Shown piece after piece: positions 5,483-41,396 of a stretch of DNA of 42,598 bases. The stretch comes from a virus. How positions within the stretch are numbered: position 1 is the stretch's first letter; the number at the start of each line of letters is the position of its first letter. The stretch lies in IMG/VR virus record IMGVR_UViG_3300020121_000208, positions 1-42,598 of that record, one strand, 5' to 3'. Both the position numbers and the translations under genes were made by a program. Under the pieces are notes generated by a model. It was given only the letters and a program-made list of their open reading frames with translations. It did no database searches and was not told the DNA's origin.

Positions 5483-8400
5483 ACATGCTGCCGGATGTTG
5501 ACGAGGATGCCTGGACGCAGGACCAGTCGCAGCAGTTCGGCGCGCACATCAAGCAGCGGCTCGACTCGTTCGGTTTCGGCCATGTCATCAACGAGCAGTT
5601 GTCCAATCTGGGCAGCCTGATCAATCCACCGCCACCACCTGAGCCAGCACCGCCGCCTCCACCGGAGCCGGCACCGGAACCACCGCCGCCACCTCCGGAA
5701 CCCGTGCCCGAACCGGCGCCAGCGCCGCCGGTCCTGCCGACGCCGGCTGCAGAAGAGCCCGCGCCCGTACCATCAGCAGTGGCGGCGCCGACCGGTCCGA
5801 CTCTTCCTTCAACACCACCTGTTGCCACGGCTCGGCCGGCGCCGTCACCGGTCTCCGACTGGCAGCGCGAGCTGATCGGCAGTGCGCTGGGTTCCGTGGC
5901 GAAGGCTGGCGGTGACGTCCAGACGTTCGCCTCGAGCCTGAGCGGCGACCTGGGCAGCGATCCGCAGAGCATGATCGGCCAGTTGCTGGGGGGGGCCGCG
6001 AAGGCGGGCGCCGACGTGCAGACGTTTGCCAGCAGTCTCAAGGTGCCGCAGATGCCTGCTGCCGGGTCTGACGGACAAACGCCGGCTACACCCGGCGGCC
6101 CGCTCCAGGACTACGCCCGTCAAGCGGCCTCCAGGGCTGGGGTTGATCCGGACATCTTCGTCCGCCAGATCCAGCAGGAATCGGGCTTCAACCCCAGCGC
6201 CCGGAGCTCCGCGGGCGCGCAGGGCATCGCACAGATCGTGCCCAAATATCACCCCGGCGTCGACGTTACGGATCCGTACGCGAGCCTGGATTACGCGGCC
6301 AACCTGATGAAGTCGAACGTCGACAAGTACGGCGGCGACTACGGCAAGGCGTTGGCGGCGTATAACGCCGGGGCCGGTGCGGTGGCCCAGTACGGCGGCA
6401 TCCCGCCGTTCGAAGAGACGCAGCGCTACGTCTCGAACATCCTGGGTGGCGCCAAGCAAGCGCTTGGTGGCGCGGTTCAGGCGGTCCAGCAGAAGGTCTC
6501 GGACATCAGCCAGTTTGGCAATCCGCAACTGACCAACGACGAGGCATACGCCGCGTGTGGTCCGGCGGCCGCGGTCAGGTTTGCCCAGCGCTTTGGTCGG
6601 AATCCAACGCTCCGCGAAGCGACCGACCTGGCCAAGACGGTCGGCTGGACGAGTGCCCAGGGTATGGCTGGTCTCGGCTCCGAGAAAGCGCTCATGGACA
6701 AACTGGGCGTGCCGACCAGGCTGGTCAGTGGTGCCGATTGGGGCACGTTCGCCGAGGAGGCGAAGACCGGCAACCCGGTGACCATTAGTACCTATAGCCC
6801 ACAGACGGGCGGCCATTACTTCACCGCGGACGGGTGGGATCCACAGACCAATCGCTTCCACGTCGGCCGTTCCGGTCTCGATCTGACGGGTGGCAGCGAG
6901 TGGATGACGCCCGAGCAGATGACCCAGGTCATGGGTCCGGTCCAGGGTGGTCTCCTCGCCGACAACCCGACGGTCGCCAGTCCGAGTCTGGCTGACCCGG
7001 CCGCCTCGGTGGGCAATGCGCGTCAATCGATGGGTCAGAACCTGCTCACGCAGGGCATCATCGACCCGCTCAAGGGCGTGTTTGCCGCGGGCGACCTGCC
7101 AGCGGGCTACGTACCGGGCACGTCGGTTGGTTCGCCAGGTCTCGAGGGCAACATCCTGCCGGGCGGCAGGCGAGGACCGGACCTGCCCAGCTTCAGCGAT
7201 ATCGGCCGGAGTGTGGGCTCGGGTTTCGATCAACTGGGCACGACGGCCAGTCAGACGCAGGCCAACCTGCAGCAGCAGATCGATCAGCTCACCCAGCCGG
7301 CGGCGTCGAGTGCGCGTGAAGACGCGCTGCGTAACGCGTTGGGCATTGGTCCAGGTCAGTTGTTTGGCGATCTGGCTGCTTCGAGTCGAAGCTTGCCTAC
7401 GCCGACGACCGGTCCGTCGGGTGAGCCGATCCCGGATATCGGTGGTAGTGCACGAGCGTTGATGGCCGAACTCGATCGTCAGCGTACCGAGTCACTGGGC
7501 GCGGGCAAGTCATTGCAGGAACGGTTGCTCAATCCGACGACGTACCTGCCCGGTGGTGCGGCTGACCTAGGTGGGGCGATCTCGGCGTATGCGCGTGGTG
7601 GGGGTCTGTCACTGCCAGGTGTCGATACGCCGCTGGGCAACATCGGTGGTCCCGAAGTGCTCGGGTTGCTGGCCAACCTGGCTATCCCGAGTGGTGCCGA
7701 AGAAGCGTTCGGTCCGGGTCCGTTGCGCACGTTTACTGCGGCCCAGCGCGAGGCACGGCGAGCGTTGGCTGATCCGGCGCTGGTCGACGTGGTTGCCCAG
7801 AAGGCGATGGAGGTGCTGCGCAGTCCGATCGCCCAGGAGGCATTGCGGTCTCGTCAGCCGGCCCAGGCCGAAGCTGGCTTCGCCGCTGGTCTCCTGCGTC
7901 CTCCTGCACGCGTCGCGAACATTGCTGAGGCAGCCACGCTTGACCCGTCGCTGCGTCAGGCGGCGCTCGACGCGGACAAGATTCTGGCCCAGCACGCGGA
8001 CGTAGCCGCTGGGCGCATCCCGACTAACACGGTGCCCAAGGACGTGCGCGATGTGTTCGACACCAACTTGCGTTTGCGCGAGATGATCACCGACCGCCGC
8101 GCGCCGATTCAGGCTGTCGAACGTCAGGCCGAATTTGCGCTTGGTCGACCGATGACGACCGACGAGCAGGCGTGGGTATTGTCGCGTACCTACGAGGGCC
8201 ACCAGGACGTTGCACTTAACAGGATGGAGCAGGAGCTTTCGCCCGCCCTGCGGCAGGTGGCCAGCGAGGATCGCCCCTTGTTGGACGCGTTTCTCGAGCA
8301 GAGGGACAACGCCGAGAAGGCGGCCGGAATTGGCCGTCGCGTCGAAAGCGGCATCCTCGACACTGAGGTCGGTCCGGTTGCGGGTCAGGCCGAGCTAGAT

Positions 8401-15819: not shown

Positions 15820-16083
15820 ATGCCCAAGACCACCGCGCTGGTGCCGCTCACCGATCCCAAGTCTGGCGAGCCCGTAGCGGCCGGCGCCGAGATCACCCTG
15901 TCCGATGAGGACTACGCCAACTTGCGAGCGTCAGGATCTGTCGCGGCCAGTGAGAAGGAACAGAAGGCCGGTCAGCAGACGGCTGGTCCGGAGGGCGTCT
16001 ACAACGCGCGCACCGGTCGCGAGGACGTCGCCAGCACCCAGCCTGCCGCCGAAGAAGCGCCCAAGACTCCGAAGAAAGGCTAA
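15820..16083 (+). CDS. Small head-region protein (87 residues)
   Basis: Starts at ATG 15820 after a consensus AAGGAGG site at the end of the previous gene. Residues 1-45 contain beta-strand segments (TTALVPLTDPKSGEPVAAGA, then ITLSDEDYANLRASGSV), resembling the small capsid-adjacent proteins that begin with a beta hairpin. Residues 46-87 are Ala/Glu/Lys-rich and probably disordered. No named family can be given. The gene belongs to the co-directional head-completion cluster. Confidence 0.7.
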   Translation: MPKTTALVPLTDPKSGEPVAAGAEITLSDEDYANLRASGSVAASEKEQKAGQQTAGPEGVYNARTGREDVASTQPAAEEAPKTPKKG

Positions 16084-35700: not shown

Positions 35701-35812
35701 CACGCACTGCAGCGATTACTGCAGTCACCAGGGTCGGTTTCAGGCCCATTCTGACGGACTCCAACGGACTCCGTGAGTTCAAATGTGATGGCCCAAAGTG
35801 GTTTGTGCGGCC

Positions 35813-35856
35813 CTGCGGAGGACGAGGTCGCCGGTTCGAGTCCGGCCGGGATCGCC
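35813..35856 (+). other. Probable attP: 3' half of a tRNA
   Basis: Contains a consensus T arm (stem GCCGG/CCGGC with loop TTCGAGT, 35830-35846), the acceptor 3' strand CGGGATC, a discriminator base and CC. Upstream lies an anticodon-loop-like CTGCGGA and GGACG. No matching 5' acceptor GATCCCG is present, so the tRNA is incomplete. Phage integrases often use the 3' half of a host tRNA as att core; the terminator just after and the integrase nearby support this. Confidence 0.65.
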
Positions 35857-35942: not shown

Positions 35943-36725
35943 ATGACTGACCCGCTCGAGGTCATCGACCAGGCGATCGCCGAGCACCGGCCCGGCTCGA
36001 TCTTTGCCCTGTTCAGTGGCGGCCACGACTCGGTCACGTCCACCCACCTGACCGCACAGCACCCGGCCTTTACGGCGGTCGTGCACGTCAACACGGGCAT
36101 TGGCATCGAGGAGACGCGCGACTACGTCAGGCAGACCTGCCACGACCAGGGCTGGCCGCTGCTCGAGTTGCACGCGCCTGCAGGGTGGTACGAGAAACGT
36201 TGTCTCGAGCGAGGAATGCCTGGTGGTCCCCAGCAGCACGGGATCATGTACCAGCGGCTGAAGGACGATCAGCTCAGACAATTGGTCCGTGAGTACAAGC
36301 GGCATCGCGGCGATCGCGTGGGTCTTGTCACGGGCATACGCCAGGCCGAGTCTGATCGTCGCCTGCGTGTGCATCCCGTGCCGATCACGCGCGAACGAGC
36401 CCAGTTGTGGATCAATCCGATCCTCGAGTGGACAAAGGCCGACGTGAACGCGTACATGGACAAGCACGGCATCCGGCGTAACCCGGTCGTCGACAAGCTG
36501 CATCGGTCGGGTGAGTGCTTATGCGGCGCGCTGGCTGACCCGGCCGAGCTCGAGTGGATCGCGTTCTGGTACCCAGACACCGCGGCGTACATCCACGGGC
36601 TCGAGGCCGAGTGCTTCAGCCGCCAGTTGCCGTATCGCTGGGGTCAGAAGTCGTCGCAGCCGTTCGAGGCACAGCAGCCCATGCTGCCGCTGTGCCAGGA
36701 CTGCGCGACCCGCTGGTCGGTCTAG
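35943..36725 (+). CDS. PAPS-reductase-family PP-loop protein (260 residues)
   Basis: Adenine-nucleotide alpha-hydrolase of the phosphoadenosine phosphosulfate reductase family (CysH/DndC-like). The PP-loop is SGGHDS at residues 25-30. Further family patterns are VVHVNTGIGIEETRDYV and GIRQAESDRR. The region INPILEWTKADVNAYMDKHG is a common family signature. Cys pairs near the C-terminus (SGECLCG and LCQDC) suggest a metal or Fe-S site. Phage members may take part in DNA sulfur modification, nucleotide chemistry or sulfur metabolism; the substrate cannot be told here. ATG 35943; TAG shared in CTAG with the integrase end. Confidence 0.82.
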   Translation: MTDPLEVIDQAIAEHRPGSIFALFSGGHDSVTSTHLTAQHPAFTAVVHVNTGIGIEETRDYVRQTCHDQGWPLLELHAPAGWYEKRCLERGMPGGPQQHGIMYQRLKDDQLRQLVREYKRHRGDRVGLVTGIRQAESDRRLRVHPVPITRERAQLWINPILEWTKADVNAYMDKHGIRRNPVVDKLHRSGECLCGALADPAELEWIAFWYPDTAAYIHGLEAECFSRQLPYRWGQKSSQPFEAQQPMLPLCQDCATRWSV

Positions 36726-37972
36726 TCGCCACTGCCACCCACGAGACGGCGCAGGACCACGTCGAGCTTCTGGGCGGCGTCGCGCTTATCGCTCTCCAGC
36801 GGATCGTGGTAGTAGTCGGTCATGGCACGGTCGCGGTGACCGGCCAGTTCCATGATCACGCGGTCGGCGACACCAGCATGGCCGAGCAGGGTGGTGAAGT
36901 TGCGACGCAACGCGTGGAAGCGTTTGATGTCCAGCCCGGCCTTCTTGCTGACCGACGAGAAGTACTTGCTGATCGTGTCGGGCTCGATGGGCGTGCCCAC
37001 CGACGTGGTGAAGATGAAGCCGGTGCGTTGGCCGGCTTGATAGTCGGCGCCGCGCCACGCCGGGCCGCGCGCCAGACGCTGGGCAACCTGATCGGTCCAA
37101 CGCTGGTCGAGCATGCCGCGCACGAGGCCGGCGACTGGCACACGGCGCTCGTCCTGAGACTTCAGACCCTGGCGCTCGAGCCGGCTGGTCGACATCCCGA
37201 GTCGGTCGGCCGTACGGCGGCTCAAGCGGTTGACGCGCTGGTGGACGCGCACGAGCGCGGTGTCGGCGGTCGGGTAGGTCACGTCTTCCCAGCGCAGCCC
37301 GGCGACCTCGGCGCGACGCAAGCCGGTACCCAGGCCGAGCCACACCAGCAGCTTGAGTGGATCGCGGTCGATCGCGCGCAACAGGTTGGTCAGATCTTCT
37401 TCGGCCGGCTGGACGTGCTTCGGGGTAGCCACGCGCGGCCGGTCGATCTGTTCCTTGCTGGCCGGGTTGTAGGGCAGCATGCGGCGTTTGACGGCCACGT
37501 CGAGCGCCGCGCTGACGACGAGCAGGGTCTGGCGACGGATCTCGGCGCTGGCGCCCTGGTCGTGCAAGGCTTTCTGCCAGCGTTCGATGCGTTCGGGTGA
37601 CACGTCCTTGATGGTGAGTCGCAGTTTGCCGATATGCGGCTTGATGTACAGGCGGATGCGGCTCTCGTACTTCTCGAGCGTGATGGGCTCGATGCCGTCG
37701 GTGCGATTGCCCGCGGCGTCATAGCGGGGTGTCTTGCGCTCGAGCCAGTAGTCGAGCCAGTCACCCACGAGCCACTGGTCAGCCTTCAGGTTGAGGCCGG
37801 CTTCGCGGTTCTTGAGCCAGGCGTCGCGCTTGCTGATCGCGTCCTTGCGCAGCGTCGCGCTGAAGCGCTTGGTTTTACCCTCGTGCCGGGTGGTCGCAAA
37901 CCAGAGATTGTCTGAGGCACGCTGGTAGATCGAGCCCTCGCCGTCGGCGCGTGCCTTTGGCTTGCGGGTCAT
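36722..37972 (-). CDS. int: Tyrosine-type integrase (416 residues)
   Basis: Site-specific recombinase for prophage integration and excision. The N-terminal arm-binding part begins GEGSIYQRASDNLWFATTRH. The core-binding region spans about residues 65-170 and the catalytic domain about 190-400. Catalytic residues are visible: Arg in GTGLRRAEVAGLRWEDV (219/220), His and Arg in HALRRNF (353, 356), His in GHRDRAM (379) and the nucleophile Tyr in TDYYHDP (387 or 388). Length fits the family. ATG 37972 overlaps the upstream stop. It converges on the PAPS-family gene, with attP beyond that gene. Confidence 0.95.
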   Translation of the reverse strand: MTRKPKARADGEGSIYQRASDNLWFATTRHEGKTKRFSATLRKDAISKRDAWLKNREAGLNLKADQWLVGDWLDYWLERKTPRYDAAGNRTDGIEPITLEKYESRIRLYIKPHIGKLRLTIKDVSPERIERWQKALHDQGASAEIRRQTLLVVSAALDVAVKRRMLPYNPASKEQIDRPRVATPKHVQPAEEDLTNLLRAIDRDPLKLLVWLGLGTGLRRAEVAGLRWEDVTYPTADTALVRVHQRVNRLSRRTADRLGMSTSRLERQGLKSQDERRVPVAGLVRGMLDQRWTDQVAQRLARGPAWRGADYQAGQRTGFIFTTSVGTPIEPDTISKYFSSVSKKAGLDIKRFHALRRNFTTLLGHAGVADRVIMELAGHRDRAMTDYYHDPLESDKRDAAQKLDVVLRRLVGGSGD

Positions 37973-38226
37973 GAGCGGCGATCCTGGCGCAGGTGCTCGC
38001 GGTAGGTCTTCTCACTGAGACCGACAAAGTCCGCGAGGATAATGATCGAGATGATGTCGACGAGCTGCTGCTGGGCGGCCTCGACGGTATCAGCGGTGAC
38101 CTGGCGGCGGCGCCCGTCAGGGGTGAACAGATAGCCGCGGATACGGCCGTTCTTGAGTCGGGTGTACCTGACGGCGCGAGCCCAGCCGGGCGAGTAGTTC
38201 GACGTGGCGTCGGGTAGACTGGTCAT
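37969..38226 (-). CDS. Small protein coupled to the integrase (85 residues)
   Basis: ATG 38226 with AGGAG 14 bases before it; its TGA overlaps the integrase ATG. The first half contains a beta region (RAVRYTRLKNGRIRGYLFTP, with DGRRRQVTADTVE), similar to an arm-binding or AP2-like fold. The second half is helical (QQQLVDIISIIILADFVGLS). It may be a recombination accessory or a small regulator. A hairpin in its leader may limit its expression and that of the integrase. Confidence 0.66.
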   Translation of the reverse strand: MTSLPDATSNYSPGWARAVRYTRLKNGRIRGYLFTPDGRRRQVTADTVEAAQQQLVDIISIIILADFVGLSEKTYREHLRQDRRS

Positions 38227-38260
38227 GACAGATCGAAGACTCCTTTCGGTTTGTCGCTAT

Positions 38261-38295
38261 AGCCCCGTCCCGGTGTCTTGCCCGTGGACGGGGCT
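38261..38295 (-). promoter_or_regulatory. Ten-pair leader hairpin before the integrase pair
   Basis: AGCCCCGTCC (38261-38270) pairs perfectly with GGACGGGGCT (38286-38295) around a 15-base loop. It lies in the 159-base gap between the XRE gene and the 37969-38226 gene. On the minus strand there is no U-run, but on the plus strand CTCATTTTAT follows. It may attenuate integrase transcription or control its translation. Confidence 0.5.
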
Positions 38296-38385
38296 CTCAT
38301 TTTATGGGCTGCTGGGTTGTGTGGCGGTTGTGTGTGCGTGTGTGGGTTGACGCAATCCCGGCCCGATGCATGGCGAGCCGGCTGG

Positions 38386-38739
38386 TCAGTTACTGAGCCG
38401 GCGAAGTTGTTCCAGCTCGTGCTGGAGGGTGGTGAGCTGGTCACGTAGCCCGATCAACTCTGAGTCTGCGGCCGGCTGGTCGACTTCCGTTGAGCGCGTG
38501 GTGCGCCGGCTGGTCGGCTTCTGGTCACCCACCAGCCCCGAGCCCTTCGAGCGCTTCAAGAAGTCGGCTGCCTGGTGGCGTTCGATGGTCTCGAGCGCGA
38601 GCGGCAGCCACGCCGGTACGGGTACCTTGCCTCGTTCCCAGCGGCTGATCGCTTCCAGGTGTAGCCCCAGGAGCTCGCCTAGCTTGGGCTGAGACATGTT
38701 CCAGTGGGCACGCCACGCCTTGAGTTGTGCGCCGGTCAT
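38386..38739 (-). CDS. XRE-family helix-turn-helix regulator (117 residues)
   Basis: ATG 38739 overlaps the preceding stop; a frame open to 38829 is longer but begins with non-coding-like Arg/Pro. Residues 3-45 are an XRE/Cro helix-turn-helix: QLKAWRAHWNMSQPKLGELL, then GLHLEAISRWERGK. A helix ETIERHQAADFLKR follows, then a linker and a C-terminal coiled coil (LRDQLTTLQHELEQLRRL). It likely controls the lysogeny operon; whether it is the repressor is unknown. Three copies of an 11-base repeat lie in or at the edge of this gene. Confidence 0.78.
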   Translation of the reverse strand: MTGAQLKAWRAHWNMSQPKLGELLGLHLEAISRWERGKVPVPAWLPLALETIERHQAADFLKRSKGSGLVGDQKPTSRRTTRSTEVDQPAADSELIGLRDQLTTLQHELEQLRRLSN

Positions 38740-38915
38740 AGCTGGTGTGCCGGCTGGTCGGGTTCCGGTTCGGCCGCGGTCAGGATGTCCTGCCAGAGCT
38801 CGTCGAGTCGTTCGGAATGCTCTACCCACGGGGCGCCCAATAGCCCGTACGCCTCGAGCGCACGGGCATAGGCCAGGACTGCCCGGCGCAGCCGGGCGTA
38901 GCGTTCGTCGGTCAT
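38736..38915 (-). CDS. Small helical protein (59 residues)
   Basis: Below usual ORF length limits, but both ends overlap neighbours exactly: ATG 38915 overlaps the upstream TAA (TAATG), and its TGA overlaps the XRE ATG (ATGA). The protein is helical (RYARLRRAVLAYARALEAYG, then SERLDELWQDILTAAEP) with a polar tail. No family recognised. Its end contains the repeated 11-base sequence. Confidence 0.62.
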   Translation of the reverse strand: MTDERYARLRRAVLAYARALEAYGLLGAPWVEHSERLDELWQDILTAAEPEPDQPAHQL

Positions 38916-39127
38916 TAGAGGATTGCGTCCTGAGCGAATTGGATTGCCCGGTCTAGTCCGGTGCCGCGCGACGTAGTCGCGAAGTGAATGGAGTCGAGTA
39001 GGTCGTGCTGCGAGGACATCGTGACAATGGCAGTAATGCCGCCGTCATAAGACTGGACTGCGGCATAGAGGCCGCCATCGATGGCTGCGAGAGCGTACAT
39101 AGTGCGCCCAGCGGTTGAGGTGATCAT
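38915..39127 (-). CDS. Small protein (70 residues)
   Basis: ATG 39127 is the best start (MITSTAGRTMYALAAIDGGL); the longer frame to 39322 overlaps the Gp88-family gene. It is a small alpha/beta protein with repeated Gly turns (YDGGITAIVTMSSQHDLLDS) and a helical end (GLDRAIQFAQDAIL). No family recognised. Its TAA overlaps the next ATG. Confidence 0.62.
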   Translation of the reverse strand: MITSTAGRTMYALAAIDGGLYAAVQSYDGGITAIVTMSSQHDLLDSIHFATTSRGTGLDRAIQFAQDAIL

Positions 39128-39164
39128 GGTGTCTTGCTTCCTATGGTTTGAGTAAGCCGGGCGC

Positions 39165-39872
39165 TCAGTGCGCCCGGTAGCTAATCGCGGTAGCCGGCTG
39201 GTCCCAACACGCCCGGCAGCTCTGGCACTCATTGTTCTGCCGGCTGGCCGGGCACGTGAACGAGCCGTCATCTGCAGCGGTGCTCCCGGCAGCCAATCCC
39301 GGAATCCGTGGAGCCGGCGCATTCATCATCAATGCACTCGGCCGGACGGTCACGTTGTCTTCACTCGACAGTGCCAGTAGCGCCAATTCCCACCCCATTT
39401 TGACAACGGGGCTGATCTTGGTCATCGTGAGCGGCCGCCAGCTACGGGTCGGAAACCAGAAGCGAACGTCCGGTAGCTGCTGAACAATGCGGACCCATGC
39501 CCACGTGTACGCCGGACTGAATAGATCGCCAGAGTCGTGCACCCGGAAGTACTTCTGGCCTTTTTGCCGGTTGGTCGACTTCCGGATCACCATAACCATA
39601 AGACTGATAAACGCTTCCGTCCCGGCGTCGCTCTTGAGACACTCACGTACCCACGTGAACCGTGCTTCCTGAGCCTTGATCACTCCGGGGTACTGCGTAT
39701 AGCTACCCTTTTTGGCGTAGCAGTGATCGCAGATTGAACCTTCACCGTAGACCGCGAACGGGCATGCTGCCCCGGCCGGGAGTCCCCAGCTAGCACTGGG
39801 CATCTTCCGTGTTTCAGTCAGTAGCAGCGAGGTCGTGCCGGGCACGTACATTTTGGGGATGTAGTGGCGCAT
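39165..39872 (-). CDS. Gp88-family phage protein (235 residues)
   Basis: Matches the phage gene-product-88 family: KMPSASWGLPAGAACPF followed by SICDHCYAKKGSYTQYPGVI, then FRVHDSGDLFSPAYTWAWVR and FWFPTRSWR. The C-terminus has a Cys set (CPASRQNNECQSCRACW). The conserved Cys residues suggest an iron-sulfur or zinc centre. Biochemical role is unknown. ATG 39872 overlaps the preceding stop. It is the largest gene of this leftward operon apart from the integrase. Confidence 0.82.
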   Translation of the reverse strand: MRHYIPKMYVPGTTSLLLTETRKMPSASWGLPAGAACPFAVYGEGSICDHCYAKKGSYTQYPGVIKAQEARFTWVRECLKSDAGTEAFISLMVMVIRKSTNRQKGQKYFRVHDSGDLFSPAYTWAWVRIVQQLPDVRFWFPTRSWRPLTMTKISPVVKMGWELALLALSSEDNVTVRPSALMMNAPAPRIPGLAAGSTAADDGSFTCPASRQNNECQSCRACWDQPATAISYRAH

Positions 39873-40501: not shown

Positions 40502-40531
40502 TTTACAAGGCTGGTCCCGACCGGCTATCAG
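40502..40531 (+). promoter_or_regulatory. Candidate late-operon promoter before terS
   Basis: TTTACA (40502-40507), an 18-base spacer and TATCAG (40526-40531) give a fair sigma-70-type promoter. Predicted start lies about five bases before ATG 40543, so the terS transcript would have almost no leader, matching the lack of a ribosome-binding site. Confidence 0.4.
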
Positions 40532-41139: not shown

Positions 41140-41396
41140 CCCATGCCTGACTGCAGTAGTGACTGCAGTAGCGTGCTGCAGGCAGGCATTCTGAGATCAA
41201 ACCTAGAGGCTAGCCTCTTCCTTGCTACGGTAGCGCGACAGCTCGCGCGGCCGCGTCAAGGAACGCGCGCGTCACCTGGTAGTGGGATAGTCCGTAGGAC
41301 TACCCCACGGGTACCACATGGCCCCCGCGGCTGGTCGCCCCCATATAGCTATACCCGACGATGTGAAAAATTCTATTTCACTGTAGAGCCAGGGTG
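41140..41396. other. Structured gap between small and large terminase genes
   Basis: A 257-base stretch with no good gene; the 84-codon frame at 41143-41397 is Arg/Pro/Ser-rich and unlikely. It contains ACTGCAG repeats (41151-41170) and a hairpin with stems GTGGG/CCCAC and TAGTCC/GGACTA (41282-41308), flanked by GGTA/TACC. GTGAAA/TTTCAC (about 41362-41380) forms another short hairpin. A packaging site (pac or cos) or translation control of terL are possible. Confidence 0.4.

Follow-up and report, generated by a model that had tools for sequence, protein, structure and literature searches.

Why should a short sequence recur on one strand only through the integrase operon of a tailed phage, and what could read it? 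The question arises in the virus record IMGVR_UViG_3300020121_000208, which was analysed over its whole length of 42,598 bases (~63% G+C; the window). The genome is that of a tailed phage: it encodes terminase, primase/helicase, PAPS reductase, an Xis-like protein and a tyrosine integrase. Its leftward (minus-strand) operon comprises, in order, genes of 88 and 76 amino acids (aa), gp88, a 70-aa gene, g59, xre, an 85-aa gene and int, and carries repeats of an 11 base pair (bp) core, GACCAGCCGGC. A sequence-only reading had suggested either a system similar to the stoperators of mycobacteriophages or a recombination signal. Our analysis supports a one-way, DNA-level motif confined to the operon. 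We propose, at a probability of roughly 45%, that the XRE regulator, whose gene lies mid-cluster, binds the repeats and damps transcript elongation across the operon to which it belongs, a form of autoregulation.

Read in the sense direction, on the minus strand, the core has six exact copies, starting at 37180, 38377, 38471, 38505, 38749 and 39193. A motif search of the whole record with GCCGGCTGGTC found no exact copy on the opposite strand and none elsewhere, so that the earlier count of six one-strand copies holds, and the motif is not equally frequent outside the operon. The position of the first copy had to be moved, from 37190-37200 to 37180-37190. Two variants reported at 39239 and 39566 proved to be real, one-mismatch copies. 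The eight copies are given below; comparisons are with locus L004 of the nearest relative, IMGVR_UViG_3300009081_000030 (loci L001/L004/L023).

37180-37199, minus strand: CGGGATGTCGACCAGCCGGC, in int, residues 261-265.
38377-38387, minus strand: core GACCAGCCGGC, overlapping the xre stop codon; the 20-bp extension is weak.
38471-38490, minus strand: ACGGAAGTCGACCAGCCGGC, within xre, residues 87-90, linker.
38505-38524, minus strand: CCAGAAGCCGACCAGCCGGC, within xre, residues ~75-79, low-confidence linker.
38749-38768, minus strand: CCGGAACCCGACCAGCCGGC, end of g59, stopping 9 nucleotides (nt) short of the xre start codon; orthologous copy at L004 7136.
39193-39203, minus strand: core, in the C-terminal tail of gp88, encoding WDQPA where relatives have WDAP or WDSP.
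39239-39249, minus strand: one-mismatch core GGCCAGCCGGC, in gp88; weak, without the 20-bp extension.
39566-39585, minus strand: CCGGAAGTCGACCAACCGGC, in gp88, within its variable insert; aligns with L004 without indels.

Several copies had been said to extend to a longer form. As a 19-mer, GCCGGCTGGTCGACTTCCG, this form is exact at 38471 only, with one mismatch at 39566 and two each at 37180, 38505 and 38749. These five copies have in common a 20-bp form, CCGGAAGTCGACCAGCCGGC, which occurs in two reading frames; the motif is thus a conserved core, often joined by a weaker left half. For the 20-bp form, a weight matrix was built from the four copies nearest xre alone, and both strands of the remaining genome were scanned with it: 39566 ranked first (23.6) and 37180 second (19.1), and the next match scored 13.2. 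With an 11-mer matrix built from the same four copies, 39193 and 37180 came out on top. These best matches (39566, 37180 and 39193) all lie on the operon sense strand. Further one-mismatch copies, absent from the sequence-only reading, start at 37404 and 37885 on the same strand; outside the operon, two more start at 15978 and 17653. Those at 37404 and 37885 are judged coincidental, because the protein is conserved at those positions.

The top 11-mer count within 4 kb was six, versus at most three in 100 dinucleotide shuffles of the window, and in sliding 3.65-kb windows over the remainder of the virus the maximum was 2-3. When codons were shuffled synonymously with the proteins held fixed (1000 trials), the 11-mer was found ~1.6 times on average and four times at most, versus five times in the actual coding sequence. 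Protein and codon bias therefore supply part of the signal, not all of it. Moreover, the frames do differ, as had been remarked: the copies at 38471, 38749 and 39193 are in a DQPA frame, those at 37180, 38505 and 39566 in a TSR/TNR frame. A codon or protein motif is ruled out on these two grounds. The core is asymmetric, without dyad, and all eight copies are on the sense strand of the operon. Half of them are within xre or at its ends, and three are near stop codons (P ~0.03).

The nearest relative has an integrase 66-67% identical to that of the window and a gp88 78-79% identical. In its L004 operon, GTCAAGCCGGC, identical to the window core at 9 of 11 positions, occurs three times in the sense direction: at the end of g65 (7136), at the end of xre (7390) and just past the following gene (7589). 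Allowing one mismatch gives six matches in the whole contig, four of them sense and inside a stretch of ~800 bp in the operon; three of the six carry the mismatch, one of these being sense in the operon. The degenerate pattern G[AT]C[CA]AGCCGGC is found seven times in the window and three times in the nearest relative's loci, always on the operon sense strand, and only three times in the loci of other relatives, in L008 and L010. At the g59/xre junction, window 38749 and L004 7136 align as orthologous, and the distance from core to stop-codon end is 13 nt at 38749 and, by coordinates, at L004 7136 and 7390. Conservation in relatives, on which the motif could have failed, is therefore seen in part: a related motif stands at the same place in the nearest phage, and in that relative alone. 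An exact 19-mer search of viral contigs returned one locus, L011, whereas a phage nucleotide search, an XRE search in viral contigs and a GP88 alignment in genome contigs gave no lead.

How did the copies arise? In gp88 and int, alignments of the window with L004 are free of indels across the sites, which indicates that these copies arose by substitution and not by insertion, and rules out an inserted mobile repeat. The two xre-internal copies encode residues 75-90, a low-confidence linker in the predicted structure, and those in g59 and gp88 (39193) encode C-terminal tails. Most sites thus lie where the protein is least constrained: the XRE linker, of low predicted local distance difference test (pLDDT) score, C-terminal tails and a variable loop. 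The pattern looks like DNA-level selection expressed where proteins tolerate change. Alternatively, the copies could be non-regulatory short repeats that multiplied at gene ends, through duplication or microhomology recombination, with the help of GC-rich codon bias. L004 offers an example of such a gene-end duplication (7119-7159 and 7373-7413, 85% alike over 41 nt), and codon bias by itself accounts for the ~1.6 copies seen in the shuffles. We find this explanation improbable, as the int and gp88 copies of the window came without insertion, differ in frame and nonetheless match better than anything else in the genome, and as the core is conserved between two phages.

The candidate reader of the sites is the product of xre. 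The genes of the operon that matter here are as follows.

39165-39872, minus strand: gp88, family match to Pfam GP88.
38736-38915, minus strand: g59, a small conserved gene upstream of xre; its variable C-terminal tail holds a repeat site.
38386-38739, minus strand: xre, a 117-aa P22 c2 / C-protein-like helix-turn-helix (HTH) regulator, the proposed binder.
37969-38226, minus strand: the 85-aa gene that separates xre from int; it matches no family.
36722-37972, minus strand: int, tyrosine integrase.

Two conserved structures were encountered in this operon besides the repeats. A hairpin surrounds the gp88 stop codon in the window (~39147-39172) and in relatives (~6690-6718 in L004), and its stem covaries, GGGCGC-ACTGA-GCGCCC versus GCGCCC-ACTGA-GTGGGCGC. 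Between xre and the downstream gene, a mostly non-coding block (window 38214-38308, L004 7604-7702) is conserved at 75% identity, with a GC-rich hairpin whose loop, GGCAAGAC, is common to both phages.

The predicted XRE structure consists of HTH helices (residues 3-69), a disordered linker (~70-91) and one C-terminal helix (92-116). Profile searches matched CylR2, P22 c2, 434, C.BclI, C.Kpn2I, C.AhdI and Aca2, and fold searches, with modest E-values, P22 c2, HigA2, C.BclI, Aca2, C.AhdI and C.Kpn2I. XRE is an ordinary phage-repressor HTH, encoded mid-cluster. This position and the precedent of C.Kpn2I led to our proposal. The binding site of C.Kpn2I lies in the gene that encodes it and shows no obvious inverted repeats; bound there, the protein is a roadblock to elongation and so exerts negative feedback (PMC6237814). 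Here too, a small XRE-fold regulator is encoded at the repeat sites, with candidate sites within its own coding region and at both gene ends. C.Kpn2I differs in having one operator region, within a restriction-modification system, whereas at least seven copies are spread over 2.4 kb of a phage operon in our case, and their binding is predicted. By analogy, we infer that XRE would occupy sites within the genes of its leftward operon (gp88, g59, xre and int) and at their 3' ends, that bound XRE would hinder RNA polymerase elongation, and that the orientation of the sites would matter. Such a block would exert negative feedback on xre, and would also limit read-through into int. What we observe, and what the proposal is based on, is the repeat, its strand bias, its confinement to the operon, the conservation of the motif in one relative, and the HTH encoded mid-cluster.

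Cousins of the operon carry repeats of their own around the same g59-xre pair. L033, found via g59, has TGACAGCCTGTCCAG four times, one copy with two mismatches, all sense and, in the region of g59 and xre, at gene boundaries or close to them:

L033 3294-3308: TGACAGCCTGTCCAG copy.
L033 3651-3665: TGACAGCCTGTCCAG copy.
L033 3858-3872: TGACAGCCTGTCCAG copy.
L033 4470-4484: TGACAGCCTGTCCAG copy.

The core of this repeat, GACAGCCTGTC, is palindromic and absent from the remainder of the 15.4-kb contig. In L009/L024, three gene junctions, among them both ends of xre, have GAC[TG]GCAACGnnATGAC. The L033 and L009 repeats are unrelated to the window motif and phage-specific, as expected if the specificity of the regulator drifts.

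Four points weigh against binding by XRE. The divergent promoter region has no good site, only an 8-bp partial match at 40509. The motif is common to only one relative. For a dimeric HTH, the orientation of a site should not have to be fixed, but all repeat copies are sense in four phages (window, L004, L033 and L009). Finally, the predicted recognition helices differ strongly between the window (LEAISRWE) and L004 (PNTVGGWE), for motifs that are identical at 9 of 11 positions. This last point favours a different phage or host DNA-binding protein as the binder: the motif is common to two phages whose integrases are 66-67% identical but whose XRE recognition helices differ. Since xre is the centre of the cluster, we regard such a binder as rather unlikely. 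The integrase itself is an unlikely binder, because a separate arm-type motif is found at the attP-like site of L004 (see below).

If XRE does bind the repeats, is this a stoperator system? In cluster A phages (L5, TipsytheTRex), stoperators are asymmetric and direction-locked, number more than 20, and are found genome-wide including at promoters; the cluster A repressor is monomeric, 183 aa long in L5, and has an HTH plus a Stoperator domain (PMC9283540, PMC6550527). The window sites resemble them in being short and asymmetric, in having one orientation relative to transcription, in lying in many cases at gene boundaries, and in the drift of the motif among related phages. They differ in number and extent: ~8 sites (at least seven near-identical), all within 37180-39585, stand against more than 20 throughout the genome, and the rightward arm and the divergent promoter are free of strong sites. 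The candidate repressor, a P22 c2-like protein of 117 aa, lacks the Stoperator domain and the length of ~180 aa. The suggestion of a stoperator-like system thus stands as an analogy only: with few sites, one operon, none in the lytic arm and such a repressor, we do not class it as a stoperator system, and what survives is that it may work like a stoperator or roadblock. Cluster O phages offer another comparison. Their 17-bp repeats are dyads with 7-bp inverted arms, present in more than 30 copies genome-wide, and were compared with stoperators by their authors (PMC4351075). The window repeats are likewise dispersed and partly within coding regions; GACAGCCTGTC of L033 is nearer to the cluster O dyad type than the window motif is.

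The fixed orientation keeps alive an RNA-level or an orientation-dependent elongation mechanism. At the RNA level, the repeat would be an element of the polycistronic transcript, either the site of an RNA-binding protein, possibly XRE, or a processing or translation signal at gene junctions. This would account for the sense orientation in all four phages and for the three copies near stop codons. Furthermore, the sister phages L008 and L010 have Twister-P5 ribozymes (Rfam RF02684, 46-67 bits), four and five respectively, at gene junctions of the homologous operon:

L008 1969-2039, 2831-2888, 3451-3510 and 3978-4033: Twister-P5.
L010 5885-5940, 6698-6756, 7305-7362, 7902-7959 and 9544-9600: Twister-P5.
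L008 2087, 2922, 3529 and 4117: GGGAGGGCAATTCCC, similar to Start-Associated Sequences (SAS), downstream of the ribozymes and beside gene starts.
L010 5986, 6775, 7397 and 8023: GGGAGGGCAATTCCC, likewise.

These ribozymes suggest gene-by-gene cleavage of the phage polycistronic mRNA. Start-linked repeats are also present in L006 (AGGAGACCCACAT, ~5 copies) and L007 (AGGAGAGTCACC, 3 copies). In the window operon, there is no Rfam match above the curated score, and most copies fold no better than shuffles, isolated sites being near the shuffle mean except for 38377; a structured RNA or ribozyme is ruled out. The mid-gp88 and mid-int copies are distant from gene ends, and just one copy lies directly ahead of a gene start. 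An RNA-level element is therefore unlikely in our view.

The SAS of cluster K phages, typically 3-7 bp before start codons and containing AGGAG (PMC3203893), are short repeats as well; most of them point the same way, and they lie in the non-structural genome half. The window repeats are not of this kind, as only 38749 precedes a gene start (by 9 nt) and no copy contains AGGAG; SAS-like repeats are instead found in the cousins L006-L008 and L010. More broadly, the g59-xre operon might bear lineage-specific one-way repeats acting on transcript or elongation, Twister-P5 ribozymes or sites of a dual DNA- and RNA-binding XRE being interchangeable ways to cut or damp it gene by gene. We hold this generalisation to be quite doubtful.

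Last, the repeats could be integrase arm-type sites or another recombination signal, as direct repeats of ~11 bp near int might lead one to think. A tRNA 3'-end fragment is the usual attP core. In the window, a tRNA 3'-half fragment, GAGGTCGCCGGTTCGAGTCCGGCCGGGATCGCC, is located at 35815-35856, between int and the Xis-like gene and just upstream of the PAPS reductase gene, and is the probable attP core. The corresponding fragment of L004, at ~9.46-9.51 kb, is flanked by its own tandem arm-type motif, GTAACTGGAGTAG (9284, 9374/9386 and 9596/9608), quite unlike the 11-mer. Related TGACTGCAGTAG sites are present in the window at 35716 (minus strand), 41148 and 41160. The 11-bp repeats do not cluster around the attP-like fragments, which lie 1.3-3.7 kb from them. 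The recombination reading is thus largely refuted and now very improbable. An attB-like 30-mer derived from the tRNA fragment had no exact match in GTDB genome contigs. In both phages, tandem 12-bp repeats occur in two places, close to the attP-like core and, as a pair, immediately upstream of the gene for the large terminase:

Window 41148-41171 and 35716-35727: tandem 12-bp repeats, TGACTGCAGTAG.
L004 4944-4968 and 9284-9620: tandem 12-bp repeats, GTAACTGGAGTAG.

If XRE does bind the repeats and damp elongation, the repeats would form a roadblock or stoperator-like system with multiple sites, confined to one operon, in which an ordinary P22 c2-like XRE stands in place of the special repressor of cluster A. 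This would suggest that directional intragenic silencing could evolve with common regulators. The cousins, which have repeats of another kind or Twister ribozymes in this operon, would be natural replicates for the origin of such arrays and for their co-evolution with the regulator.

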